Below, one piece after another: positions 13,593 through 30,043 of a stretch of DNA of 46,823 nt. The stretch lies in assembly GCA_020343595.1 (NCBI GenBank), contig CP070802.1, forward strand, positions 565,112 to 611,934, read 5' to 3'. A program made the position numbers and the translations under genes. How positions within the stretch are numbered: the stretch's first letter is position 1; each line of letters starts with the position of its first letter. A model generated the notes under the pieces. It saw nothing but the letters and a program-made list of their open reading frames with translations, was not told where the DNA came from and did not search any database. This DNA comes from Caldifarciminota bacterium (lineage in GTDB: Bacteria > Hydrothermota > Tepidihabitantia > SM23-42).

Positions 13593-13802
13593 TGTGGAGG
13601 CGCCTCGATACGCTCGGGGCAAATCAGAGATTTGGGCGGACGAAAGATCTATGAAGACTCATTCCATGAAGGATTGGAATGAGTCCGCGAAAACTTGTAG
13701 TTAAATCAGATCTTTGGAATTTCATAGTCCCGTTTCCTTTGGAACACGGGACACTAAAATCTGCAATCAAATCGATAGATTTGAGCAGATTTTGTGGAGG
13801 CG
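13593..13802 (+). repeat. 200-bp segment bounded by 10-bp direct repeats in front of selC
   Basis: TGTGGAGGCG occurs at 13593-13602 and again at 13793-13802, where it forms the start of tRNA-Sec. The DNA between is full of palindromes: CAAATC-AGA-GATTTG (about 13620-13634), an 11-bp stem GACTCATTCCA/TGGAATGAGTC (13656-13666/13675-13685), a GTCCCGT/ACGGGAC hairpin (about 13728-13752) and AAAATCTGC...GCAGATTTT (13756-13793) enclosing CAAATC-GATA-GATTTG. It looks like a small inserted element with target-site duplication, or a structured leader. No protein is encoded. Confidence 0.6.
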
Positions 13803-13889
13803 GATGGGTGCTGGTGTGCCTGACGGGCTTCAAACCCGGATGTCCTTCGAAAGGGGGACGGTAGGTTCGATTCCTACACGCCTCCGCCA
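13796..13889 (+). tRNA. selC: tRNA-Sec (anticodon UCA), selC
   Basis: This tRNA inserts selenocysteine at UGA codons. The gene has the long selenocysteine form: acceptor GGAGGCG pairing with CGCCTCC (an eighth pair would be a G-A mismatch), a 6-bp D stem with 4-nt loop, anticodon TCA at 13830-13832 inside CGGG/CCCG, a long variable arm, T loop TTCGATT, discriminator G and encoded CCA. The selB and selA genes lie 2-5 kb away and three UGA-containing genes lie 13-16 kb away. Its presumed promoter is displaced 200 bp upstream. Confidence 0.95.
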
Positions 13890-15559: not shown

Positions 15560-17482
15560 TTATCTGTACTTTTGTCCGAGAACGCGGACGTCTCCTCTTT
15601 TTATGGTGACACCTCGCGTGTCAAAATATATCAGAAGCGGCAAAACGAACTTCCGGCTTGCGCCGAGCAGGTCGCGGAACTGTGAAACCCTTATTTCCTT
15701 GTTTGCCTTGAGGTATTGGAGGAGTTTTTGTTGTGCGGTCTCAACGTGCTTCTGGTGCAAGACAACACCCTCGCCGGCATTCACAAGTAACCCGGTGTCG
15801 AGCATATAACGGTAAGCCTTCTTGACAGTCTTCTCCGGGCCAAATTTGCGGGCTACGATTTCTTCGTACGACGGTGGTTTGTAGCCAGAATCGACGAAGA
15901 CTTGCTCGATCTTCTTGATCGCGGTGTCGAGTTCCTTATCGACTATTACTTTGTGTTCGAAGAGGTTGACCTTTCCGTCCGGTGTAAGACGGACGATCTT
16001 TTCTGCTTCCATTTTTACCAGCGTACGGTCCAAGAGAACTTTGTCGAGGCCTCTACTGACCCTCTTCAGCAGTTCAAGCGCAGATAATCCCACACCCGTT
16101 GGATTGGCCTTGTGGTAACCGTCGAGGGTCTCGGTAATTAGTGCTCTTAATTTTTGATGATTTTTCTGGTGATAGTAGAATCCACGCTTTTCATCCAGGC
16201 ACATGATCTTGCCTTGTTCTGTCAAGGTCGTAATCAGATTCTTTATTTCTGCCAGCGGCAGGTTCACATCATGCGCGATCTCTTCTGGTTTGCGCGGAAG
16301 GTCGAAATTTGCCAGCAAATCCTCCTCTACAACAACAATTGGTTCGCCGACTTCCATGCGTTGCAGATGGCTGATCAGCTCCTCGTCGAATCCCTTTGCT
16401 TTTGTCGCTTTAGGTTCGATTATCTGGCCGCCGCCTATCGTCATTTGGGGTGAGTATGTTCGAACGACGTAATTGTCATTTATATCACATACGGCAGGTG
16501 ATTCCAGCCTGAACTGTACCATGGCTTTCTGCCCTGGTTCGAGTATTTTCATATCGAGCAGAACGACACGGCCGAATATTTCGTTAGTTCCGACATGGAT
16601 CCGCAGCCGCGTGAAATTCTTGAGCGGTTTGCTGGCAGATGACAATAAGTAAAGTGACGCGTTTAGGTATTCTGATGGTTCGAAAAAGCCTGGCTGCGCG
16701 AGCACGTCGCCCCGTTCAATCTCATCTTTGTCGGCTCCTACGAGATTGATAGCGGCACGAAATCCGGTGCTCACCGAATCCCTTTTTTCATTGTGAACTT
16801 CTATACCTCTGATCTTGACGCTTCTCTTCTCGGGTAGTAACTCGACACTATCTCCTATTCTTACACTGCCAGATAACACTGTGCCGGCAACCACAGTACC
16901 GAAACCTTTTATCACAAATCGACGGTCGATAGGCATTCTAAATATACCACGATCAGTTTTGGGCTCAGTCTGTGCGATGATTTCATCGAGTGATGTCCGA
17001 AGTTGGTCAATACCTTCCTTTGTGGTATTGGACACCGGAATGATCTTTGCCTTCTCAAGGAATGAATTAGTCAAAGCACCTTTCACATCGTCTATTACTA
17101 CGTCCAGCATATCCTGTTCAACGAGGTCCTTCTTTGTTATGACCACGATCCCTTTCTTTATGCCAAGCAGTTTGAGGATCTCAAGGTGTTCGTGGGTTTG
17201 GGGCATCACACCGTCGTCAGCGGCGACTACGAAGATCACGAAGTCAATCGTTGATGCGCCGGCGACCATATGCCGAACGAATTTTTCGTGACCCGGGACA
17301 TCAATTATCGTTACGTCGTCACTGTAAAAGACAAATCCCAGGTCGGTCGTCATACCGCGCTCTTTCTCTTCCTTCAGGCGGTCCGGGTCCACACCGGTCA
17401 GTGCTTTTATTAATGCACTCTTTCCGTGATCGATATGACCCGCGGTGCCGATAACTATGTGTTTCTTCTTAACACTGGTCAT
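15560..17482 (-). CDS. selB: Selenocysteine-specific elongation factor SelB
   Basis: SelB delivers Sec-tRNA-Sec to the ribosome at UGA codons followed by a SECIS hairpin. This 640-residue protein has the G domain at 1-180: [16 protein letters not shown], the switch region [29 protein letters not shown] and the TKKD box. EF-Tu-like barrel domains follow, then winged-helix repeats (about 370-640) that bind SECIS RNA. Its length is close to the E. coli protein. It is downstream of selA, separated by 167 bp containing a palindromic repeat, and has no obvious Shine-Dalgarno sequence before its ATG. It is one of four selenocysteine machinery genes in this window. Confidence 0.97.
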
Positions 17483-17649: not shown

Positions 17650-19041
17650 TCAGGTGGTTCTCAGGATCGCCTTAAATGCATCGAGTATGATCTTGTCCTC
17701 ACCCTTCATGACGGTGCGGAAGTCGAGGATGACTCTATCGTCGGCAACCCGGCTAAATACTGGTGGACTGTACCGGCGCAAGGCGTGTGCCAAATCGTTT
17801 GCCGATAGACCTTTTGCTTTTACCGCGACCAGGTAAGTCGGTAGTTGTTCGGTACTGAGCGACCCTCCGCCAATCTCGCTCACACCGGAGATTACAGAGA
17901 CATCCAGGGTCGTGCCAAACCATGTTTTTAGCTTTTTGGCACATCGATTCGCACTGCTTTTTATTTCATCCAGTGGTTTAAGTAATATGCCCAAAACGGC
18001 GTGATTTGATATCAAATCCTCTTCTTTTAGTAAGAATATCTGAAGGGTGGCTTCTAATACTGCATTCGTGATTTTGTCACATCTGAGCGCTCGGGTCAGG
18101 GGATTCTTCTTGATTTTCTCTATGTGGTGTTTCTTGCCGATGACAATTCCGCATTGGGGTCCTCCGATGAGTTTGTCCCCGCTGAAGCAGACGACATCAG
18201 CGCCCGTGGAAATGCTCTCCTGTACCATGGGTTCTTTAGGTAATCCATAAGGGGCAAAGTCGATGAGTGCGCCGCTTCCGAGATCATCGATGACCGGGAT
18301 ATCATGTTTCTTCCCAAGTTCCACAAGATCATCCAGAGGAACTTCTTTGGTAAAGCCAATTATCCTGTAGTTTGACTGGTGAACGCGCAGTATTGCGCCC
18401 GTGTTTTCGTTTATGGCGCCTGCATAATCCTTGAGATGAGTTCTGTTAGTCGTGCCAATTTCATGCATTATCGCTCCGCTCTGCGCCATGATGTCAGGAA
18501 TACGATATGCCCCGCCGATCTCGATGAGCTGTCCCCTTGATACGATCACTTCCTTGCCTTTTGCTATAGCATTGAGGATGAGCACCGTTGCTGCAGCATT
18601 GTTATTGACGATTATTCCAGCTTCGCACCCGGTTAGGATCTGAAGCAAGCGGTCGATCTTTCTGTACCGATCAGCCCGTTTGCCTTCGTCGTCGATCTGC
18701 AATCTGGAATAGCCCAGGGACATTTCGCTGACGACTTGGGCAATACGTTTGTTAAAGGGCGCGCGGCCCAACCCGGTGTGCAGGACTATCCCGAGTGCGT
18801 TTACCGCATAACAGAAATACGGAGTGATCAGATCCTGAATCTCAGCCAGGATGGCCTTCTTAAGATTTGCCTGGTTGGTTTTCCCGCCGGATAGCAGGAT
18901 TTTTCGGTAATTCTCGACATTGTCGCGTATGATCCGGGTCACATGTTTCTGGTCAATGATCTTAAGTGCTTCCTTGATTTCATCCCAACTAAGTATCTTG
19001 TCTACCGAGGGGATATTTCTCAGTATTTCTTTAGTTTTCAT
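17650..19041 (-). CDS. selA: L-seryl-tRNA(Sec) selenium transferase SelA
   Basis: SelA is a PLP enzyme that converts seryl-tRNA-Sec to selenocysteyl-tRNA-Sec using selenophosphate. The 463-residue protein shows the family landmarks: NALGIVLHTGLGRAP, the stretch from YSRLQID onward, VNNNAAATVLIL, and the PLP-binding lysine in FSGDKLIGGPQCG (about 295). The frame is open 15 nt further upstream to a TTG, but the ATG at 19041 has GAAGGAA placed correctly before it and a consensus promoter behind that. selB follows downstream. All conserved parts are present, so it should be functional. Confidence 0.97.
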   Translation of the reverse strand: MKTKEILRNIPSVDKILSWDEIKEALKIIDQKHVTRIIRDNVENYRKILLSGGKTNQANLKKAILAEIQDLITPYFCYAVNALGIVLHTGLGRAPFNKRIAQVVSEMSLGYSRLQIDDEGKRADRYRKIDRLLQILTGCEAGIIVNNNAAATVLILNAIAKGKEVIVSRGQLIEIGGAYRIPDIMAQSGAIMHEIGTTNRTHLKDYAGAINENTGAILRVHQSNYRIIGFTKEVPLDDLVELGKKHDIPVIDDLGSGALIDFAPYGLPKEPMVQESISTGADVVCFSGDKLIGGPQCGIVIGKKHHIEKIKKNPLTRALRCDKITNAVLEATLQIFLLKEEDLISNHAVLGILLKPLDEIKSSANRCAKKLKTWFGTTLDVSVISGVSEIGGGSLSTEQLPTYLVAVKAKGLSANDLAHALRRYSPPVFSRVADDRVILDFRTVMKGEDKIILDAFKAILRTT

Positions 19042-19057
19042 GGTTTCCTTCTGCAAA

Positions 19058-19147: not shown

Positions 19148-19870
19148 TCAGAGCGAGAGTGCAGCGCCAATTGCGCCGATGAACTGCGGATGCTCTGGAA
19201 TTGTTACGGCTCCAAAGATCCTTTTCATCGCTCTGATAAGGCCTGGATTTAGGGCGCCGCCGCCACAGAACAAAATTGGTGACTCGATACCTATTTGACT
19301 GCCAATCCCGTCGATCCTCCTGACGAGTGCTTCGCATACTCCAGCCACAATGTCTTCAAGTCGCTTGCCTTCTGCTACGAGACTCAAAATTTCGGTTTCG
19401 GCCATGACTACACACAGGGAATCGATTATCTCGGCGCGGTCAGCGTTTACTGCTAACTGCCCGAACTCGGCCAGGCTAAGGTCGAGGGCTTGTGCAATCT
19501 TCTCAATGAAATTACCGGTTCCGGCCGCACAGCGGTCGTTCATCACAAACCGGTCAACACGCTCCTCTTTGACCTTGATGATCTTACTGTCCTGGCCTCC
19601 GATGTCTACGATCGTTCGAACTGATGGTTCAATATGAGAAGCTCCTTTGGCAAATGCAGTTATTTCTGTTATCGTCTTATCAGCGTTTGCGACGAGATCC
19701 CTTCCGAAGCCGGTGGCGACGATCCTATCATATCCTCTAAGTTCGTTCACGGCACGTTCGACCGCCAGTTTGGGTTTGAATGACGTTTTGAGAACGATCT
19801 TGTTTCTTACGTGTCCATCAAATAAGATTCCTTTTGTATAGCTCGAACCAACGTCTAATCCCAGTACCAT
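19148..19870 (-). CDS. 2-hydroxyacyl-CoA dehydratase/benzoyl-CoA reductase-type activator ATPase
   Basis: This 240-residue protein belongs to the HgdC/BcrD family (ASKHA fold). Dimers of this family hold one [4Fe-4S] cluster and use ATP to push electrons at very low potential into a partner iron-sulfur enzyme. Visible features are the phosphate-binding GLDVGSSYTKG, DIGGQDSK, and both cluster cysteines in NDRCAAGTGNF and IDSLCVVMAETE. The open frame extends 23 residues upstream, but ATG 19870 has AGGAGA before it and fits the family start. It overlaps the preceding methyltransferase gene by 16 bp and is the last gene of the corrinoid operon; its partners are the two dehydratase-like subunits upstream. 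Confidence 0.93.
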   Translation of the reverse strand: MVLGLDVGSSYTKGILFDGHVRNKIVLKTSFKPKLAVERAVNELRGYDRIVATGFGRDLVANADKTITEITAFAKGASHIEPSVRTIVDIGGQDSKIIKVKEERVDRFVMNDRCAAGTGNFIEKIAQALDLSLAEFGQLAVNADRAEIIDSLCVVMAETEILSLVAEGKRLEDIVAGVCEALVRRIDGIGSQIGIESPILFCGGGALNPGLIRAMKRIFGAVTIPEHPQFIGAIGAALSL

Positions 19871-20886
19871 CCGTTCTCCTTTGCAGCATTTATGAATGCC
19901 ATAACATTGTCGAAGGGAGCATGGATAGGAACTTCGCAACCCGTTGCTGCAATGTAGCCTTTAGGTGCCTGCATTGAGAGCTTAACCATATCTCTTACCC
20001 CACTTGCGATTTCTTCTGGAGATGAAAATGCCAATAGCGACGTGTCATAGTTCCCGATCACGCGCACTGTTGAGGATAATTTCTTAATTGTATCCGTCAG
20101 GTCAACACGGTCAATACTTATGAGGTCGGCGTGCGTCTCCTTAAGGAGATCGAGGATCGGCGTAGTATCTCCGCAGATATGCAGGATGACATCGAGGTCG
20201 TACCGGTGCAGGAAATCAACTAGTTTTCTTTCATAGGGGAGAGCGTATTGTCGATATGCCCTCGGGCTTATGACACTCGACGATGCCAGCGGGTCAACGA
20301 TGATGGGCAATCCCCCGGCATCGATGGCGTGGTAACATAATTCGATTGCGGCTGCCAGAGACTTTTCCATGACTGCCTTTACATGGTCCGGTTCTTTGAT
20401 CGTTTGAATGAGAAATCTATTCGGTTCGGAAAGCATCATGCCTGTAGTAAATGGGGCAGGTATATATGCCAGTATGGGAACTCGGTCGCCGAGGGCATCG
20501 TAGGCATATTCGATCGCTTCAAGGTATACTGGTAGTCGTGCATCAGATGTTGGTACCGGGATTTCAATATCATTGATATCCTTTTTCTCAAGGGCAGGTA
20601 TCCTCTGAATCGGCAGATCATTTTCAGGATAGTCAAATTCCGTTCCCATGGCTTCGGCGATGATGCCCACCTCGGAAAAGATCGAGATGGCATCGTGTCC
20701 GTATTTCTCGATGGCGGCGATCTGCGCGCGCGCCATGTTTTCTCCGTTCGTGTAGTAATCCCTGAGTTTCATGCCTCTGACCGAAGCAGCGTGCGAAGTA
20801 ATTAGCGGTATGGTGTTGCAGCGGTCAGGTTTCTCGTCGATCACCAGTAGTCCGAATCTTTCGCGCGGCGTTAGGATATCGGTCAT
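19855..20886 (-). CDS. Uroporphyrinogen-decarboxylase-family (MtaA/MtbA-like) methyltransferase A
   Basis: The 343-residue protein has the UROD-type TIM barrel fold used by methyltransferases that move methyl groups between corrinoid proteins and thiols or other acceptors. A zinc site is suggested by LHICGDTTPILDLL and the late TGCEVPIHAPFDN, with PLASSSVISPRAYRQY between them. This pattern is typical of MtaA/MtbA/CmuA relatives, not of haem-pathway HemE. Its ATG at 20886 overlaps the stop of the upstream gene (ATGA), so translation is coupled. Substrate unknown. It is a partial paralogue of the gene at 23247-24170. Confidence 0.9.
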   Translation of the reverse strand: MTDILTPRERFGLLVIDEKPDRCNTIPLITSHAASVRGMKLRDYYTNGENMARAQIAAIEKYGHDAISIFSEVGIIAEAMGTEFDYPENDLPIQRIPALEKKDINDIEIPVPTSDARLPVYLEAIEYAYDALGDRVPILAYIPAPFTTGMMLSEPNRFLIQTIKEPDHVKAVMEKSLAAAIELCYHAIDAGGLPIIVDPLASSSVISPRAYRQYALPYERKLVDFLHRYDLDVILHICGDTTPILDLLKETHADLISIDRVDLTDTIKKLSSTVRVIGNYDTSLLAFSSPEEIASGVRDMVKLSMQAPKGYIAATGCEVPIHAPFDNVMAFINAAKENGWYWD

Positions 20887-22274
20887 TTTAGCATTTCGAT
20901 GAAAGCTGCGATCCTGGTCCTGATTTGCTCGGTTATACCCAAGGGCGCCGGGATGTCGATTGCGAGTATGGGTACGTTCTTCAATCTTTTTTCGATCGCT
21001 CTTGTTTCCATTGCACAGTGAGAGCAACCCAACATGTTGGTGATGATCACGCCGGCGATTCTGCCGGAATCAACTCCGGCGGAAATATGACGGATTCTTT
21101 CTTCAGTTGAGCCAATGAGTGAAGCGTTCATGAACGATCTGGCGAGGGCGCGGAAAGGATCGATATCTTCTTCGATCTCACTCAACGCCTGGTTAATGAC
21201 ATATTCAGTCGCAACGACGCGACCGCCCAGATCTTCGACGATATTCAGCAGTAAAGGGTCGGCAGTGGGGGTGATCCATGCGAGCGGTATGGCATCCGAA
21301 TCTAAAACACCGTTTCCACTCTTCACACGGTCAATGATCTTGCTTTTTACCATCTCGAGGATATCGATCCACTCATCGATATCTGCATAGCCATATAGGT
21401 TGCCGAATTCAATTACCATCATTTCGAGAGCAGGAAACGGTGCAATTTTGGCTCCATGTGTTAGGGCTTTAATTTGATCCACCAATCTGCGCAATCTATT
21501 GTTCTTCTTTATGCTTTCTCCGAGTTTCTCAGGATCACCGTCATTGGTCAGGTCCTGCATTCGCTGCCATACATGTTTGTATTCGTTGATGAGGTATGTC
21601 TCAAACCGTTCTGGATAGTCAAGACCTTGGGGCGTTCTTGCGTATTTTTCATCCGTAAAGTGATCCTGTTTTTTCCTCCGAAAAGGTATCTCGAGCCAGT
21701 TCAGTTCAAAGCCCATGTCTTCGACCATTTGCATGATACAGGAGTAGTCATCACAGGAAGCGCCTGTTGATGCGAACAGGATATCTGGTTTTGGGAAATA
21801 TGCCATCTTGTGAAAGGCAGCAAGTGTCGACCGGACGAAACAACTCGCTTCAGGTGTACCGAGTTCACTCGCCTTGTCGAGAAGCACGGTCGATTCGTTG
21901 AAAAAGGGAGTCCACCAGGTGCAGTCCGGGTAGAATGGGATGCAGTCGGGAAAAGCCATTGCGATGACAGGGACAGTTCCGAGGTCGCCCATTGTGGCAA
22001 TGATATGTTTTCCGCTTTGCCGCGCACGGAACAGTCTTTCGGATTCATTGAGTGCAAAGCCCCAGAGTCTGAGGGCAGCCAGCGAATTGTCTAATTTCAG
22101 TTTTCTTAGTTCTCGGGCACCATAGACCATGAACGTTGCCGGCGGCGAGAGATAGATGCCCCATTCGTCGTTATTGTAGTATTTGAATCTCCTTATCTCT
22201 GAATCATCGAGCAAGCGGAACTGTCTGCTCCATTCTTTTAAGCTGATCTTCTGCGGGTCTATGTTCTTGAGCAT
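20883..22274 (-). CDS. 2-hydroxyacyl-CoA dehydratase-family subunit (HgdB/BcrC-like), large
   Basis: This 463-residue protein belongs to the family covering 2-hydroxyglutaryl-CoA dehydratase, benzoyl-CoA reductase and the double-cubane cluster proteins. Probable cluster cysteines lie in TGASCDDYSCIMQM (about 170-183) and NMLGCSHCAMETRAIE (about 420-435); WTPFFNES and IPFRRKK lie between. Nothing nearby encodes CoA ligases or acyl-CoA enzymes, so a role as a low-potential electron donor to the corrinoid protein is as likely as a dehydratase role (inference). The ATG follows GGAGATGTT. It overlaps its neighbours by 16 bp and 4 bp. Confidence 0.9.
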   Translation of the reverse strand: MLKNIDPQKISLKEWSRQFRLLDDSEIRRFKYYNNDEWGIYLSPPATFMVYGARELRKLKLDNSLAALRLWGFALNESERLFRARQSGKHIIATMGDLGTVPVIAMAFPDCIPFYPDCTWWTPFFNESTVLLDKASELGTPEASCFVRSTLAAFHKMAYFPKPDILFASTGASCDDYSCIMQMVEDMGFELNWLEIPFRRKKQDHFTDEKYARTPQGLDYPERFETYLINEYKHVWQRMQDLTNDGDPEKLGESIKKNNRLRRLVDQIKALTHGAKIAPFPALEMMVIEFGNLYGYADIDEWIDILEMVKSKIIDRVKSGNGVLDSDAIPLAWITPTADPLLLNIVEDLGGRVVATEYVINQALSEIEEDIDPFRALARSFMNASLIGSTEERIRHISAGVDSGRIAGVIITNMLGCSHCAMETRAIEKRLKNVPILAIDIPAPLGITEQIRTRIAAFIEMLK

Positions 22275-23245
22275 AACATCTCCGCAAATGCCTCGATCCT
22301 GGTTCTTAACTGGCTGTTGCTTTGATAAGAGAAGTCGCTGCGTATTCTCAGTAGTGGCAGGTTGAGTACTTTCTCGATCCTCTGTAGCTCGAATTCATGA
22401 ACGTCGCAGTAATCCAGTGTCCAGGCAATGACTCCTGTACAGTCCAGCCTGGTAATTTCCGATTGCAGAAATTCGTAGTATTTCTGATGTGGCCTTTTAT
22501 ATAAGCAAGGTGGCTGGTTGTAGTACGCTTTTTTGATTCCTTCAATATTCTCTTCTTCAATCTGTATGTGAAGGGGGCGGGATAGTCCGCAGTTGAAGTC
22601 TCCGACAATGCGGAGGTTTGATTCGATCATCTGAAGGATGTGGTTTGCTTCGTATGTAATGGCACTCCCCAATATGTATACCCGTGCTTTCTCCGATGCA
22701 TTCTCGCTGAACGTAACCTCGTTCTCACAGGATCCCGTGTGATAACAGGCCATTGCATTGTGGAATTCTGTTGTGGATGTTAGCGACGGGCAGGCTGCTC
22801 TTTTTTGGTCCATTGCCCTCAGTGCTGCCCGAATTCTTTCCCATTTGCCGATTTCGTCTCTGATGATTTCATTCGTGAATTTTTTCTGGGAAAAGTATTC
22901 GAGTTGTTTGACCAACCAGTCAATTTCATCAGAATATATTTCGGGTTTATCTGTTCTTGGATTGTTCACAACGTATACCGGAATTTTAATGTGTTCACTC
23001 AGAATGTCGAACATGCGTCGAGACATGTCGCATCCGGTTGAGCCCACCAGTGCAGCAAATCGATCTTGATTTTCAAGAACATAGGCGAGATTTGATTTGA
23101 TCATTGGGCACGCATCGATCCTTACTACTTTCTCGCCCCTCTTTGACAGGCTGATCTCGCCGTGGAGTAGTCGGTACGGACGCAGTCCGGTTGCCGAGAG
23201 TATTTCTACTGGTATATAAGAGCATGCATAACCGATCAGCTGCAT
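22259..23245 (-). CDS. 2-hydroxyacyl-CoA dehydratase-family subunit, small
   Basis: This 328-residue protein is a second, divergent member of the HgdB/BcrC-like family. It begins MQLIGYACSYIPVEILSATG, a characteristic N-terminus of these subunits. Candidate cluster cysteines are in RIDACPMIKSN, GSTGCDMSRRMFDIL and WTLDYCDVHEFE. The open frame extends 27 residues upstream into the previous gene, but the ATG at 23245 lies 1 nt after that gene's stop and begins at the family start. With the 463-residue neighbour it probably forms a heterodimer served by the ATPase encoded at 19148-19870. Confidence 0.88.
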   Translation of the reverse strand: MQLIGYACSYIPVEILSATGLRPYRLLHGEISLSKRGEKVVRIDACPMIKSNLAYVLENQDRFAALVGSTGCDMSRRMFDILSEHIKIPVYVVNNPRTDKPEIYSDEIDWLVKQLEYFSQKKFTNEIIRDEIGKWERIRAALRAMDQKRAACPSLTSTTEFHNAMACYHTGSCENEVTFSENASEKARVYILGSAITYEANHILQMIESNLRIVGDFNCGLSRPLHIQIEEENIEGIKKAYYNQPPCLYKRPHQKYYEFLQSEITRLDCTGVIAWTLDYCDVHEFELQRIEKVLNLPLLRIRSDFSYQSNSQLRTRIEAFAEMLCSRT

Positions 23246-23246
23246 T

Positions 23247-24170
23247 CTATCTCTCAATATTACCATACTCGCTGGCGATTCGTAGCATGGTTTTGATGTT
23301 CTCCGGCGGTGTGTGCGGCGGAACATCGCAGGTTGTCGACAGGATCACATTCTTGTTCTCGAGTGCAGTGTCTACCTCAGACTTGATTCGATTCGGATCT
23401 CCGTTAAGTATCGTACTCGTTCCAACTCCACCCATTTTCAAGGTTTCGGTACGAAGTTCAATATCCTCAATGCTCAGGATATCCGCACCCAGCTTATCAA
23501 GATACTCTGATATGGGTCGGACATCGCCGCAGATATGTATGGCAACAAGGGCACCGTGGGTTTTCGTTTTGTCCACCAGGGTTTGAAGTGCTTTGAACGC
23601 ATACTTCAGGAACATTTGGGGTGATATGACACTCGATGAAGCGAGCGGGTCTCCGATCATAATATTGACACCGAGGGAAAGTAATCTTTCTAAATACTGC
23701 AACTGGTATTGCATTGCAGTTTCCATAAATCGTGAAGCTTCGTTCTCCCTTTTCAATATGATTTTCAAATAGTTCTCGATGCCGGCTAAGAAGGAAGCAA
23801 GGGTAAAAGGCCCTTTGACTGAAACGAAGACAGGAACATCGAGTTTCATCTTCAGGATCTTTGCAGCGTGGATGATCTCCGGGGTACGGTCGTACGAATG
23901 CCGGGCTGCAGGTCCAAGGAGGGTTGGGTAGGGCTCAAGCTCGACCGGACAGCCCATCGCTTGTGCTTCAACATAAGGGTCGGAAAAAACCAACACCATG
24001 TCATACCGATAGAGCTCGTGGCAGTATTGGATAACCTGGGCAAGTTTCTCTCCATCTTGAGCGACTTCCTTCAGTGTCAGATTCAACAGATATGCGCCAT
24101 GGTCAGCACATACCATTGGGAATACCGCATGATGTATTTGCCTGCCAATGACTGAAGAAATTTTATCCAC
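23247..24170 (-). CDS. Uroporphyrinogen-decarboxylase-family (MtaA-like) methyltransferase B
   Basis: The 307-residue protein is a second UROD-fold methyltransferase, shorter than its paralogue at 19855-20886. It shares PLASSSVISPQMFLKYAF, the zinc-site IHICGDVRPISEYL and a late STTCDVPPHTPPEN. The start is a GTG at 24170 that overlaps the corrinoid protein gene by 8 bp, with no clear Shine-Dalgarno sequence, so it is probably translationally coupled. The direct link to the corrinoid gene makes it the likely primary methyl donor or acceptor enzyme. Substrate unknown. Confidence 0.9.
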   Translation of the reverse strand: MDKISSVIGRQIHHAVFPMVCADHGAYLLNLTLKEVAQDGEKLAQVIQYCHELYRYDMVLVFSDPYVEAQAMGCPVELEPYPTLLGPAARHSYDRTPEIIHAAKILKMKLDVPVFVSVKGPFTLASFLAGIENYLKIILKRENEASRFMETAMQYQLQYLERLLSLGVNIMIGDPLASSSVISPQMFLKYAFKALQTLVDKTKTHGALVAIHICGDVRPISEYLDKLGADILSIEDIELRTETLKMGGVGTSTILNGDPNRIKSEVDTALENKNVILSTTCDVPPHTPPENIKTMLRIASEYGNIER

Positions 24171-24792
24171 TGACGATTTTTTCGATGAGTTTTACCGCAG
24201 AGGGTCCGTCCGGACTATACCCATCAGCCTTGACGCTTGCGGCGAATTCTTCATTCACCGGGGCTCCGCCGATGATCACCTTCACTGCATTGCGCATGTT
24301 GCGCTTTTCCAATTCCAGGATAATCTCACCCATATGAGTCATCGTCGTAGTCATGAGGCTCGATATTGCCAGTATGTCCGGTTTTTCTCTTTCGACAGCC
24401 TTGACGAATTCCAAAACTGGCACGTCACGGCCCAGGTCAATGACCTCGTAGCCTGCTGCTTCCAGCATGACCTTGACGATATTCTTGCCGATATCGTGTA
24501 TGTCGCCTTCGACCACGCCAAAAACGATCTTTGCCCCCGGTTTTCGAGATGACCCTTTTATGAGTTGCTTTATCTTATCGAATCCGGCGTAGAAAGCTTC
24601 AGAACACAAGAGCACTTCGGGTACATAGTATTCCTTGCGTGCGAAAAGATCTGCCACTTCCTGCATTCCGGCGATCAATCCTTTCTCAAGGATCTCAACC
24701 GGATCCACCTTCTCCTTGAGCGCAATGGATACGCTCTCTTTTGTTTTTTCATCATCCATTTCTATGACTGCTTGCTTTATTGAATCAAACAA
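24163..24792 (-). CDS. Corrinoid (B12-binding) methyl-carrier protein, MtaC/MtbC-like
   Basis: This 209-residue protein has the two-part layout of corrinoid methyltransferase proteins: a helical cap (1-85) and a Rossmann-like B12 domain (about 90-209). The cobalt-ligand motif is EGDIHDIGKNIV, with ISSLMTTTM and IIGGAPVNEEFA. In such systems the Co(I) form takes a methyl group from one methyltransferase and gives it to another. Translation starts with TTG at 24792, just after GGAGGTGAA. A promoter lies about 22 bp upstream, so it leads a sub-operon. Confidence 0.95.
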   Translation of the reverse strand: MFDSIKQAVIEMDDEKTKESVSIALKEKVDPVEILEKGLIAGMQEVADLFARKEYYVPEVLLCSEAFYAGFDKIKQLIKGSSRKPGAKIVFGVVEGDIHDIGKNIVKVMLEAAGYEVIDLGRDVPVLEFVKAVEREKPDILAISSLMTTTMTHMGEIILELEKRNMRNAVKVIIGGAPVNEEFAASVKADGYSPDGPSAVKLIEKIVSG

Positions 24793-24813
24793 TTCACCTC
24801 CAGGTCGCGAAGA

Positions 24814-24842
24814 ATAATAGCAATATGTTACGTTTCAGTCAA
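24814..24842 (-). promoter_or_regulatory. Promoter of the corrinoid-protein sub-operon
   Basis: On the minus strand, TTGACT (24842-24837), 17 bp, TATTAT (24819-24814), followed by GGAGG and the TTG start at 24792. Confidence 0.7.
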
Positions 24843-24880
24843 GCATTGGGCGCGCTGCAATTTCTTGATGTTTCTCAGTT

Positions 24881-24916
24881 GCAGGATACCTCCGGGTCAT
24901 ATCAGAGGCACCCTGC
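24881..24916 (-). other. 12-bp RNA hairpin after the SAM methyltransferase gene
   Basis: As minus-strand RNA, the arms at 24916-24905 and 24892-24881 form twelve continuous pairs, two of them G-U, around a 12-nt loop. The same DNA on the plus strand would have A-C mismatches, so the structure belongs to the operon transcript. It lies 6 nt past the stop and lacks a T-run, so it may be a processing or stability element, not a terminator. A second small stem (CTGCAA/TTGCAG) follows it. Confidence 0.55.
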
Positions 24917-24922
24917 TTCCTG

Positions 24923-25714
24923 CTATTTTTGAGCGACGAATAATCCCCGGCCGACTTTATGCTCGTGTGCGGCTTTTTGCCAGATCGTTACCAGATTTGA
25001 TGCGAAGTCGAAGAGGTCCTTCCCAAAATTCTCGAGGATTGTAGGTTTCAGTGCGACATGTACCTTCTCATAGTACTCGTCAAAACACTTGGCATATTCT
25101 TCGGTCTGATCCAGAGCCTCAAGTAGTTTGAAACCGTTCTTCTTCAGCAGCTCATGATATCCTTCAAATGATTCCATGTAGGGGAAAGCCATTGTCTCGA
25201 GTAATGGGTCAAGTTCCTTTTCTGATATATCACCAGTGATTATCCAATCGGTGAACGCGATCTTGCCGCCTGGTTTGAGCACGCGATGTGCTTCCTGGAT
25301 CAGCCTGTTCTTGTCAGTGACGTAGCACCATGCCTCCTGTCCCCATACCACGTCGAATGTTTCCTGTTTGAAGGGAAGGTCCATGGCATTCCCTTCGTAG
25401 TATTCTATGAGGTCTTCGAGTTTCGCCTCCTTTGTCCGTTGGGCTGCTTTCTCTAACATTGTCTTGGTAGCATCGACGCCCTTGACCGTCACTCCATACT
25501 TTGATGCGAGATGGCGTGCCGGCGCACCCAGTGCACTGCATATGTCACATACAACCATACCTTTCTTGAGTCCGACCTTCTGTGCAAGTGCATCGGTTGC
25601 TGCGGGCCCGCCTGAATGTATCTGTTCCCCCATTACTGCTTCCCATAATAGTCCTCCCGGACCATCATATACATCCTGTACGTCCTTTATTGTGAAGTCC
25701 TTCTTGTATGTCAT
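24923..25714 (-). CDS. Class I SAM-dependent methyltransferase
   Basis: The 263-residue protein has a Rossmann methyltransferase domain (about 50-170): motif I VVCDICSALGAPARHLA, the acidic VKGVDAT, motif II NAMDLPFKQETFDVVWGQEA and motif III VLKPGGKIAFTDWI. The N-terminal YDGPGGLLWEAVMGEQIHSGG resembles glycine/sarcosine/dimethylglycine N-methyltransferase-type enzymes (family-level inference). The ATG follows AAAGGAG one nt after the stop of the FTR-like gene. Placed ahead of a corrinoid methyl-transfer operon, it may make or consume a methylated substrate of that pathway. Confidence 0.9.
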   Translation of the reverse strand: MTYKKDFTIKDVQDVYDGPGGLLWEAVMGEQIHSGGPAATDALAQKVGLKKGMVVCDICSALGAPARHLASKYGVTVKGVDATKTMLEKAAQRTKEAKLEDLIEYYEGNAMDLPFKQETFDVVWGQEAWCYVTDKNRLIQEAHRVLKPGGKIAFTDWIITGDISEKELDPLLETMAFPYMESFEGYHELLKKNGFKLLEALDQTEEYAKCFDEYYEKVHVALKPTILENFGKDLFDFASNLVTIWQKAAHEHKVGRGLFVAQK

Positions 25715-25715
25715 G

Positions 25716-26018
25716 TTACGCTCCTTTCGATCTATGAAGTAATCTGCAAAAACAATGGTTATCCTTAACGATTTTATCCTTCAACTCACGGCACGGATAA
25801 AGGGTGTCTTTCTTTGGATCCAGCGGGTGGGTCTGCTTGCATGTACAATAATACTTGCCGAATTCGGTTTTGCTCATCGTCATGAGGTCGATGACTTTTC
25901 TTAGTCGTTTCTGATCCGGATTGAGTACGAAACCATGCTCTTGCGTTATTTTGTTTGCTCTCACGAGATTTTCGCTGTATTGTATAGTACCTACTACTGA
26001 ATCCCATTTATTCCCCAT
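25716..26018 (-). CDS. Ferredoxin-thioredoxin-reductase catalytic-chain-like protein
   Basis: The 100-residue product ends in a cysteine pattern close to the catalytic subunit of ferredoxin:thioredoxin reductase. YYCTCKQ, LYPCREL and NHCFCRLLH stand where plants and cyanobacteria have CPC, CPC and CHC. That set would supply a [4Fe-4S] cluster plus a redox disulfide, though the second CxC is reduced to a single Cys. A thiol-redox or electron-transfer part in the adjacent corrinoid/iron-sulfur system is a reasonable inference. It is the first gene of the operon, with ATG after AAGGAAGGA and a leader of about 317 nt. Confidence 0.75.
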   Translation of the reverse strand: MGNKWDSVVGTIQYSENLVRANKITQEHGFVLNPDQKRLRKVIDLMTMSKTEFGKYYCTCKQTHPLDPKKDTLYPCRELKDKIVKDNHCFCRLLHRSKGA

Positions 26019-26497: not shown

Positions 26498-26523
26498 GCA
26501 AAAGGGGCGGCTTGCACCGCCCC
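26498..26523 (-). terminator. Rho-independent terminator of the DUF4242 selenoprotein gene
   Basis: On the minus strand, GGGGCGG, a 6-nt loop, CCGCCCC (26523-26504), then TTTT. It begins 23 nt after the TAG stop at 26547. Confidence 0.88.
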
Positions 26524-26546
26524 TCAATAGTGGTTGAAGGTGCATG

Positions 26547-26786
26547 CTACTTGTATTCGACGACACTCCGTATTGATTCCACATGCACGTTTGCCTGGGT
26601 GAACAGTTCTTCAATGCTTTTTCGGTCGGGAGCGCTCCAGCAGCATATCGCCTGACTATTCTCTTCATCTATGTATGCTTTGTCCATGCAGAGGCTGCTT
26701 CCTCCAGAAGCAGTAACAACCGCTTTTCACGATGCGATTATCTCCTCCTTGGGCATTTTTGGAAGTGTAACCAAGTATTTCGGCAT
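26547..26786 (-). CDS. Small DUF4242-like selenoprotein (Sec at residue 20)
   Basis: A 79-residue protein appears when the in-frame UGA at 26729-26727 is read as selenocysteine: MPKYLVTLPKMPKEEIIAS, Sec20, then KAVVTASGGSSLCMDK... ending TAG. The MPKYLVT start, the ICCWSAPDRKSIEEL middle and the NVHVESIRSVVEYK end match the small ferredoxin-like DUF4242 family (some members described as nickel-binding). The UGA falls in the first helix. A 7-bp SECIS-type hairpin begins 13 nt after it. GGAGGTGATT precedes the ATG, a TTGACT-N16-TATATT promoter lies upstream and a strong terminator downstream, so this is a complete single-gene unit. Cys33, Cys48 and Cys49 could pair with Sec. Function unknown; a frame-breaking mutation is the alternative. 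Confidence 0.82.
26695..26713 (-). promoter_or_regulatory. SECIS-type hairpin in the DUF4242 gene
   Basis: On the minus strand, CTGCTTC-TGGAG-GAAGCAG forms a perfect 7-bp stem with a 5-nt loop whose second base is G. It begins 13 nt after the UGA, so UGA to loop is 20 nt, inside the known bacterial range. Confidence 0.8.
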
Positions 26787-26802
26787 AATCACCTCCTATT
26801 CA

Positions 26803-26830
26803 AATATAATGTGATTTACAGATAAGTCAA
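26803..26830 (-). promoter_or_regulatory. Promoter of the DUF4242 selenoprotein gene
   Basis: On the minus strand, TTGACT (26830-26825), 16 bp, TATATT (26808-26803), followed by GGAGG and the ATG at 26786. Confidence 0.8.
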
Positions 26831-27102: not shown

Positions 27103-28137
27103 TTAGGGGGCTAGTGTTACGCGGCCACTGTTCGCAGCCGTTGCGCGGCCTATTACTGCAAAATCCTTTGTGTATTCTCTTTTGAATATTTCGACCCGTT
27201 CTTCTGGCAGGGCGATTATCAGACCGCCGGAGGTTTCCGAGCCAAAGATCAGGTTGACGAGGTTTGAGTCACTACTTCCCTTGTCAACGCGGTTACTAAA
27301 AGAATTGAGATTCATTGTTATCCCCGGCTCGAAAATACCCTGGTCCAGGATTTCTACAGCACCTTCGTGGGTTGGGATTTTTTGCAGTGATAGTTCTATG
27401 CCGATGTTGCTTGCTTCGCTCATTTCAACGAGGTGACCGATAAGACCGTACCCGGTAACGTCGGTGGCACCGTTGGCCTCTGCTTTTCGCATTGCAATTG
27501 AAGCGTCTTTGTTCAGTGATGTCATGGCCGCGATGACCGGCGCCATGTCGATGCCATCGTCCTTACCCATAAGCATCGCCTGGATTATCGTTCCAACACC
27601 AAGGGGTTTGGTCAGAATGAGGACATCGCCGGGTTTGACCCCTGCGTTTGTGATGATCTTCTTAGGATGGATATAACCAAGAACTGACAGACCATACATC
27701 ACCTCAGGTGAGGCAAATGTGTGGCCGCCGATCGTTGTAACACTGGCTTCCTTTGCTTTGTCACTGCCACCTTTCAGCATTTCACCGAGGGTCTTGGGTT
27801 CACCCATACCAGGGTAGCCGACAATGTTCAACGCGAGTTTCGGGTCACCCCCCATTGCATATATATCCGATATGCAGTTCGCAGCCGCGATCATCCCGAA
27901 GGTGTAGGCGTCTTCAACGACCGGTGTAAGAATGTCGATGGTCTTCACTAGTGCCAGATCGTCGTGCAAGCGGTATACACCCGCGTCGTCTGCAGTGTTG
28001 GTTCCAACCAGCAGGTTAGGATCCTCGATCGGTGGCAAATAGGCCAGTGCCTGCGCCAACTGCGCAGCCGAAAGTTTCGATGCTCAACCGGCGCATTTGA
28101 CCGTGGCGAGTATGCCTTTTTTCTTGTTTTCGATCAT
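27103..28137 (-). CDS. selD: Selenophosphate synthetase SelD, itself a selenoprotein (Sec18)
   Basis: SelD makes selenophosphate from selenide and ATP. The full gene is 344 residues from the ATG at 28137, with an in-frame UGA (28086-28084) at codon 18 in KCAG-Sec-ASKLS, exactly where SelD carries its catalytic Cys or Sec. Conventional calling would start at 28059 and lose the active site. Downstream are the ATP-grasping GTNTADDAGVY, TVDILTPVVEDAYTFG, AAANCISDIYAMGG and TTIGGHT. A 6-bp SECIS-type hairpin follows the UGA by 16 nt. The ATG lies 5 nt after a perfect -10 box, so the mRNA appears leaderless. Because SelD needs Sec, its synthesis depends on its own product. Confidence 0.96.
28051..28067 (-). 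promoter_or_regulatory. SECIS-type hairpin in selD
   Basis: On the minus strand, CTGCGC-AGTTG-GCGCAG: a perfect 6-bp stem, 5-nt loop, G at loop position 2. UGA to loop is 22 nt. Confidence 0.85.
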
Positions 28138-28228: not shown

Positions 28229-30043
28229 TTACTTCAGCAGAACTGTTTTCTCGACGATCTTTGTATCACCGGTTTGCATGGATACGAAATAGACGCCGCT
28301 TGGCAATTGCAGATTAGTGTGGTCTGTTCCATCCCAACTAATCTGCATAGCGCATGGGGCATGGGGCATAGCGTCATATAGACTCTTAACCAAACGTCCG
28401 GCTGCGTCGTAGATATTTATCTCTATGCTCTTAGCGCTTTGCCCAATGCTGAAGTTGATGTTCGTTTGATTGGAGAATATCGTAGGTGATACAATTAGGG
28501 AAATAGCGTTCAGTTCTTCAGGAGTGTTCAGTTCGTTTATACCTGTCACGGATACCCAGACATCGTCAACATACCAGCCTTCAGCATAGGTGCTGTAATC
28601 ACTGACGAGTCTGAATCGCGCACGCACGGTCTGGCCCTGTAGGTTGGCTAGAGAAAACGTTTCCTGTGTCCAGGTTGATTGAATCCCGTTGTATTCGTCG
28701 AGGGTCTGCCACCAACCTGAGCCATTGTCGATTTCCGCATAAGTATAGTCCCAGTTTGTTTCCAAGTTGTATTGGTGATAAAAGGAGAATATGCTATCCT
28801 GTGATACAACGAAATACGGGGAAACAAGTGATAGATCATTTTGATTCAGATAATGCCAGATGTTCTCGACCCCGCAGTACCAGGAATGGGTCGGGGAATT
28901 GCTCTTGTACTCGGTCAAATGCCAATTGTCATATGTTCCGTAATGTGTCCACTCTCCTTCGCCAGATTCCATATCGTCGCTGAATCCTGACTGTGTTGTC
29001 ACTAAGAAGGGTACTGCTGACTCATTCCCGTCGCCGAAGACAAGATTGAATTCAGCAAGATGCGGATCTGGACAGGTTGCGCTGATATCAAATGTCCATG
29101 TTATCACGTCGTCCACATCACCCGGATAGATCTCAAAAGTGTCCACATAGAACGACGTGATGCTGATGTTCGGATCAGTGCATTGCACTGTGGCCGGGAG
29201 CGTGTAGACACTGGTTCCCATATTCTTGCCAAATGCAGTGACCTCCATCTCCTCACCCGGTTCTCCATAGCCGTTACCATTGCCAGTGAGTTCAGTCACC
29301 GTCATGCCGTAGTACACCATGTGAGATTCAGGTATGATCGCTACTTCGGCACCTTGGTATATCAGGCGGCTTGCTGCTTGCACAAAAACAACGATGCGAC
29401 ATTTAGTTTCATCCCAACCTGACTCGACGGTGAAATCCCTTGATCGTATAATGGTATCTGAGGCCGGTACGGTGACCGCCTCACCGGTTGCATCCGGTAG
29501 CATATCGCGCATGACCTGATCGAGTTCGGTCATGCCGCCGCCCCAGTTGTAGGGGATATCGTCTTCGATAAGTGCAAAATGTATGTTACCGTCCACTGCG
29601 CTTGAGGTCGTATTGGTTACAGTCGCCTCGACGTTACCCTGGTTCGTTGTCGAATCGTAATCGCAGGTTAATACTATTTCGATCGGGCTATCAACCGCTG
29701 CGCGCGTTGTGACATGATGGCGGAAGAAGGGATACATGGTGCCGCTAGTGAGACCACCGACTTCAGAAATTGTCCCATCGAACCATGTCGTAGGGGTTCC
29801 GGTTACACCGTAGTATGCTTCACGCGCCTCGGCTTCCGGCGTATTGAATGGATCACTCGACCATATATGATACGAAATAACCGTTAACGTATCATATGCC
29901 CGAGGGTATATTTCGGCAAGACCTCTTGCCGTACCTGGACAGTATGGTCAATTCGTGGCCGTGAATTCCTCTACCACGACCGTTCGCTGACTGCTGTACG
30001 CTACTGCAGTCAATAGCAGACACAGAATAAGGATCTTTCTCAT
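28229..30043 (-). CDS. Secreted thioredoxin-fold selenoprotein (Sec-Pro-Tyr-Cys) with sorting tail
   Basis: Reading the UGA at 29950-29948 as Sec32 gives 604 residues from the ATG at 30043 (ribosome site GGAGG). The layout is: signal peptide (1-18); a thioredoxin-like, Omp28-type domain (about 20-130) with VVVEEFTATN-Sec-PYCPG and the cis-proline loop GVTGTPTTWFDG; a beta-rich middle; a MAM/jelly-roll-like domain (about 355-510, FSDDMESGEGEW, GWYVDDVWV); and a FlgD/type IX-like tail (about 515-604). Homologues normally have Cys-x-x-Cys, so Sec replaces the attacking Cys. Conventional calling would start at residue 103 and lose the domain. A 7-bp SECIS-type hairpin starts 16 nt after the UGA. 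Likely an extracytoplasmic thiol oxidoreductase; substrate unknown. Confidence 0.88.
28345..28372. repeat. Four 7-bp tandem units inside the sorting-tail coding region
   Basis: Units GCATAGC, GCATGGG, GCATGGG and GCATAGC encode AMPHAPCAM in the selenoprotein tail. The surrounding 60 bp are nearly identical to 10746-10807 in the M6 protease gene, although the flanking protein sequences have diverged. Confidence 0.7.
29914..29931 (-). promoter_or_regulatory. SECIS-type hairpin in the Sec-thioredoxin gene
   Basis: On the minus strand, CGGCAAG-AGGT-CTTGCCG: a perfect 7-bp stem with a 4-nt loop. It starts 16 nt after the UGA, and UGA to loop is 23 nt. The loop AGGU is close to the GGUC-type loop of the E. 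coli formate dehydrogenase SECIS. Confidence 0.87.

Follow-up and report, generated by a model that had tools for sequence, protein, structure and literature searches.

A predicted selenoprotein with an SCO4226-like (DUF4242) fold, encoded beside selD in a WOR-3 bacterium

Closest described systems and layout of the locus

SCO4226 of Streptomyces coelicolor (PF14026, formerly DUF4242; PDB 4oi3/4oi6) is a nickel-binding protein of 82 residues in which His23 is a ligand of Ni-2, and its metal sites are of low affinity, all but Ni-1 being termed plastic by the authors (PMC4186839). Prokaryotic selenoproteins, among them the SelB/SECIS-decoded ones of bacteria, have been sorted in a 2026 inventory into 119 families or subfamilies, and a redox function is assumed for the majority of selenoproteins (PMC13188914). 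DUF3343, or Se_S_carrier (PF11823), a proposed selenium/sulfur carrier (PMC5322559) of about 80 residues, occurs beside YedF and Sec lyase.

In this study, we found that the window, that is, the whole stretch of 46,823 nucleotides analysed, contains a gene which, judged by sequence comparison, almost certainly encodes a selenoprotein. The host group is candidate division WOR-3, which is uncultured, and the genomes named below are metagenome-assembled. Like known bacterial selenoproteins, the gene combines an in-frame UGA with Sec machinery, a Cys homologue, and a hairpin soon after the UGA with a G among the first two loop positions. Unlike them, it belongs to a family (PF14026) that the inventory does not list, its predicted selenocysteine lies in the middle of a helix with neither a UxxC/CxxU motif nor a thioredoxin-like context, and the usual residue at this position in the wider PF14026 family is His rather than Cys.

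The gene has 79 codons and runs on the minus strand from 26786 to 26547, and its only in-frame UGA is codon 20; the plus-strand reading of coordinates 26547-26786 is not the gene. Its translation is MPKYLVTLPKMPKEEIIASUKAVVTASGGSSLCMDKAYIDEENSQAICCWSAPDRKSIEELFTQANVHVESIRSVVEYK (79 residues, U20). The main features are as follows.

26550..26786, minus strand: candidate SCO4226-like / DUF4242-like selenoprotein gene, ATG at 26786 and TAG at 26547-26549; 21 UGA copies and one Cys homologue
26727..26729, minus strand: UGA codon 20, predicted to be read as selenocysteine; TGA in the same column in 21/21 UGA copies, TGC in the Cys homologue (G059/L018)
26695..26713, minus strand: putative bacterial SECIS hairpin CUGCUUC-UGGAG-GAAGCAG, perfectly paired over 7 bp and beginning 13 nt past the UGA; core GCUUC/GAAGC conserved
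26792..26797, minus strand: Shine-Dalgarno sequence AGGAGG, by direct reading; a GGAGG-type site lies ahead of the start in every homologue
26803..26830, minus strand: sigma-70-like promoter TTGACT-16-TATATT, kept in 6/6 genus members
26499..26525, minus strand: intrinsic terminator GAGGGGCGGU-GCAA-GCCGCCCCUU followed by UU; -20.2 kcal/mol, z -3.2
27103..28137, minus strand: selD (selenide, water dikinase), TIGR00476, E 7e-90; Sec at codon 18
17650..19056, minus strand: selA, TIGR00474, 543.7 bits against a cut-off of 267.9
15560..17482, minus strand: selB, TIGR00475, 335 bits against a cut-off of 242
13796..13889, plus strand: tRNA-Sec (selC), ARAGORN; RF01852, 75 bits
28229-30043, minus strand: Omp28-domain / thioredoxin-like secreted candidate selenoprotein, TGA at 29948-29950

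A preliminary description of this DNA had placed a gene here with promoter, GGAGG, ATG, UGA at codon 20, TAG and terminator, and every one of these parts was found. The gene is real at the coordinates given there, which left the minus strand unstated. The perfect 7-bp hairpin with loop UGGAG, 13 nt past the UGA, was likewise as described, and selA, selB, selC and selD, said to lie within 14 kb, are all present within 13 kb. As also claimed, ordinary ORF calling misses the gene, which without recoding is split into a stub of 19 codons and a remainder lacking its 5' end. Promoter prediction of TTGACT-16-TATATT by itself is no better than chance, and only its conservation counts; four other members of the genus have a comparable GC-rich hairpin 3' of their copy.

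Two other selenoprotein genes, one known in kind and one a candidate, lie close by. The selD gene itself encodes a selenoprotein of a known kind (TGA 28084-28086, ...KCAGUASK...), with a SECIS-like hairpin, CUGCGC-AGUUG-GCGCAG, and a TGA conserved in five genus relatives; ordinary ORF calling shortens its start to 28059. The Omp28-domain candidate, unannotated and located 3 kb upstream of the SCO4226-like gene, has a signal-peptide-like start, an NUPYCPG motif (UxxC), a C-terminal sorting tail, and a hairpin, CGGCAAG-AGGT-CTTGCCG, beginning 16 nt past the UGA; both UGA and hairpin are kept in three genus relatives.

Conservation of the UGA, the frame and the hairpin

Homologues were searched for in 100 related genomes, then in the class (65 genomes) and then in the phylum (147 genomes), and were found in 20 WOR-3 genomes. 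TGA occupies one identical column in 19 WOR-3 copies from 18 genomes and in two further copies from the Fibrobacterota group (a Chitinivibrionales genome and a relative), giving 21 UGA copies from 20 genomes, the least similar of which is about 47% identical to the window protein. One homologue (G059/L018) has TGC, and thus Cys, at this column. The preliminary description had proposed a search for homologues with Cys or UGA at the same column; the column is UGA in 21 copies and Cys in one. Because a single Cys homologue was found and the wider family has His, the Cys/Sec pair test rests on one sequence, and the tree of homologues lacks the resolution needed to place the Sec/Cys change in time. 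One genome (G022) carries two diverged UGA paralogues (L009 and L021), whose identities to the window protein are 62% and about 50%. Another (G018, L020/L043) retains a decayed remnant with only a broken 3' part, while selA and tRNA-Sec are still in the genome.

Purifying selection acts on both sides of the UGA: among six genus members, pN/pS is 0.13 upstream and 0.11 downstream. After the UGA, 34-37 of 40 residues are alike among genus relatives, and no second internal stop occurs inside any homologue copy. Since antisense shadows of neighbouring genes inflate raw six-frame TGA conservation, we compared TGA codons by rank and set the raw counts aside. The 20 kb around the gene contain 71 open-flanked TGA codons, of which the UGA of this gene, the Sec codon of selD and the TGA at 29948 are the three that rank highest by genus conservation.

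Across the window, 9 of 1968 TGA trinucleotides (0.46%) precede a stem of at least 7 bp with SECIS geometry. The presence of a hairpin therefore carries little weight when taken by itself, and as the z-score for the fold of 53 nt around it is not significant, folding energy alone was not counted as evidence. What argues for the hairpin is its conservation. The five core pairs GCUUC/GAAGC are intact in 20/20 aligned UGA sequences, and the core stem is also present, with a G-U pair, in the 21st copy (L091). Compensatory changes on both sides of the stem turn U-A into C-G and U-A into G-C, and shuffled and slid-partner controls score lower for covariation. Third positions of the stem codons 26, 29 and 30 have an entropy of 0.29 bits, whereas codons downstream of the UGA average about 1.4. 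Loop position 2 is G in every UGA copy, as it is in the hairpin past the selD UGA, whereas the stem is gone in the Cys copy (G059/L018). The preliminary description had made hairpin conservation across related genomes a point on which its proposal could fail; the hairpin is kept, with covariation, between genera and families and in one further bacterial group, and is absent in the Cys form.

Fold, position of the selenocysteine and possible role

The window protein scores 27.3 bits against PF14026, slightly below the curated cut-off of 28.5, which ten UGA-containing relatives exceed, and PF14026 matches 20/20 aligned members. The AlphaFold2 model (pLDDT 90.4), whose predicted fold draws on both halves of the protein, before and after the UGA, has 4oi6 (SCO4226) as its best solved structure (TM 0.79, E 1.3e-4), the sole solved match with E < 0.001. 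The earlier assignment as DUF4242-like is thus borne out, and we consider it very likely that the gene encodes a selenoprotein and that this protein has an SCO4226-like fold.

The resemblance to SCO4226 extends to length (79 and 82 residues), a modelled ferredoxin-like beta-alpha-beta-beta-alpha-beta topology and an equivalent of Asp43, although identity to SCO4226-like proteins is about 15% and the form encoded with UGA is confined to genomes that decode Sec. In the alignment, Sec20 corresponds to His23 of SCO4226, and Cys48, which is invariant and belongs to the third modelled strand, to Cys51; with a chain offset of 7 residues taken into account, the numbering fits the published His20, His23, Glu38, Asp43, Ser46, Glu74 and His76. 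Thus, where SCO4226 has His23, the present family has a predicted Sec, or once Cys, and plasmid homologues of Arthrobacter, Haloferax, Agrobacterium and Nocardioides also have His at this column. A distant PF14026 protein without UGA from the same family of genomes (L045 in G011) keeps the Cys (GICDWEAP) and has none of His, Cys or Sec at the helix-1 column. Like SCO4226, the protein is probably dimeric.

In the proposed mechanism, the SECIS hairpin past codon 20 would recruit SelB and Sec-tRNA-Sec, UGA 20 would be translated as selenocysteine, and the product would be a 79-residue protein with the ferredoxin-like fold of SCO4226 (PF14026). The Sec selenolate would take the place of the helix-1 His, a nickel ligand in SCO4226, and, possibly with or near Cys48, would bind, carry, transfer or reduce a soft atom, either a metal(loid) or selenium/sulfur.

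As to role, the gene neighbourhood provides further clues. The gene order in the window, most of which is common to genus relatives, is Omp28-U, selD-U, the UGA gene, FtrB, methyltransferase, corrinoid protein, URO-D, HGD-D, HGD-D, URO-D, BadF, selA and selB, with the intervening genes placed as follows.

25716-26018: FtrB, ahead of the methyltransferase/corrinoid/HGD-D run
19148-25714, minus strand: methyltransferase, corrinoid protein, two URO-D methyltransferases, two HGD-D (double-cubane type) subunits and BadF activase, between selD and selA

In other lineages, selD ends 10 nt upstream of the gene, with HGD-D and BadF downstream (G025); the gene adjoins selD, YedE, a class-V aminotransferase (Aminotran_5) and Se_S_carrier (G022); or it lies between BadF and YedE/YedF (the Chitinivibrionales genome, G147). 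The Cys form has HGD-D and a BadF-cluster gene downstream. Because the gene stands beside selD or YedE/YedF in several lineages, we favour a role in handling a soft metal(loid) or selenium/sulfur, and our estimate that the protein binds or carries a soft atom falls a little short of even. Selenium/sulfur is the first choice for that atom because the neighbours include selD, YedE, YedF, a class-V aminotransferase of the cysteine desulfurase / Sec lyase type, Se_S_carrier and BadF/HGD-D reductases, albeit this narrower proposal is tentative. These neighbours suggest selenium handling, a link put no more strongly because many copies are isolated among unrelated genes (MutL, EPSP synthase, secreted proteins). 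YedE, being present in just 5/65 class genomes, is not a general partner. Se_S_carrier shares a cluster with the UGA gene in G022 but belongs to a different Pfam family, is not a selenoprotein and is missing from most genomes with the UGA gene; as a complementary family, DUF3343 is too rare in the class for an exclusion test.

The main functional rival to soft-atom carrying is that the same selenoprotein performs thiol/selenol redox catalysis, for example as a reductase partner of FtrB, corrinoid or HGD-D enzymes, and we regard this as a real, albeit not the probable, possibility. It would fit the prevailing view of selenoproteins as redox proteins (PMC13188914), the FtrB, corrinoid methyltransferase and HGD-D/BadF genes downstream in the genus, and the flavodoxin or C_GCAxxG_C_C genes close to other copies. 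However, the redox neighbours differ between lineages, the window protein has no UxxC-type motif, and at the Sec column the wider family has not Cys but His, the residue that binds metal in SCO4226. A third proposal, a nickel-binding protein like SCO4226 with one ligand replaced by Sec, agrees with the fold and family and with the alignment of Sec20 with the Ni-2 ligand His23, but appears improbable considering the Ni-1 site (Asp43, Ser46, His76), of which Asp alone is kept, as D40, Ser46 being lost and His76 replaced by Arg/Lys in most copies. The SCO4226 sites are themselves of low affinity and, apart from Ni-1, plastic (PMC4186839), and NF033706, the model for SCO4226 nickel-binding proteins, gives 12.2 bits against a cut-off of 125. 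Returning to the carrier proposal, it is conceivable, albeit doubtful in this full form, that selenocysteine replaced a metal-ligand histidine, and not a cysteine, in a ferredoxin-like carrier fold, and that the resulting protein serves the selenium pathway of uncultured bacteria by carrying selenium or a soft metal(loid).

Sec machinery, reading of the UGA and significance

Sec decoding was assessed by selA together with a tRNA-Sec call requiring an RF01852 score over about 57 bits, since at E <= 0.001 every genome 'matches' RF01852. Among class genomes, selA and/or tRNA-Sec was present in 18/18 with a UGA copy, and none of the 15 without both selA and tRNA-Sec had a UGA copy (Fisher p 0.004, with kinship ignored). 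The genome G010 (L071), assembled as a single contig, carries the UGA gene and selA but showed no tRNA-Sec above the Rfam cut-off, which may reflect an assembly gap or a divergent tRNA.

Hairpins past stop codons can stimulate read-through, and a near-cognate tRNA could in principle insert Trp or Cys at the UGA instead, with the hairpin as stimulator, a reading with which the G010 genome is compatible. We consider it highly unlikely, given that dedicated tRNA-Sec, SelA, SelB and SelD are present, that UGA copies are confined to genomes with Sec machinery, that the stem and the loop, with G at position 2, match the hairpin past the selD Sec codon, and that the sole replacement at the column is Cys, never Trp. 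This genome regularly uses UGA as a stop (TGA ends 10/27 long ORFs), so a changed genetic code is no explanation. That UGA 20 is a true stop, leaving a 19-residue peptide and a fossil or disused frame, is scarcely credible, for despite this regular use and the broken 3' part in G018 it is already contradicted by the conservation downstream of the codon (pN/pS, residue similarity, no further stop in any copy) and by a predicted fold that uses both halves.

The selenoprotein reading also appears to be new. The preliminary description knew of no described selenoprotein in the DUF4242 family, and none was found in the sources consulted: NCBIfam (June 2026) has no matching selenoprotein model, the inventory of 119 families and subfamilies (PMC13188914) contains no PF14026, DUF4242 or SCO4226, and a literature search, with subscription papers outside its scope, returned no selenoprotein report tied to DUF4242, SCO4226 or WOR-3. 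The family is therefore absent from the published inventory, and unpublished NCBI curation is possible.

In summary, the bacterial selenoproteome would gain a protein family, on a fold unusual for selenoproteins and in a phylum for which no selenoprotein paper was found. The gene illustrates how such genes escape ordinary gene calling, and the predicted change from His to Sec at a known metal-ligand position poses a direct, testable structure-function question.
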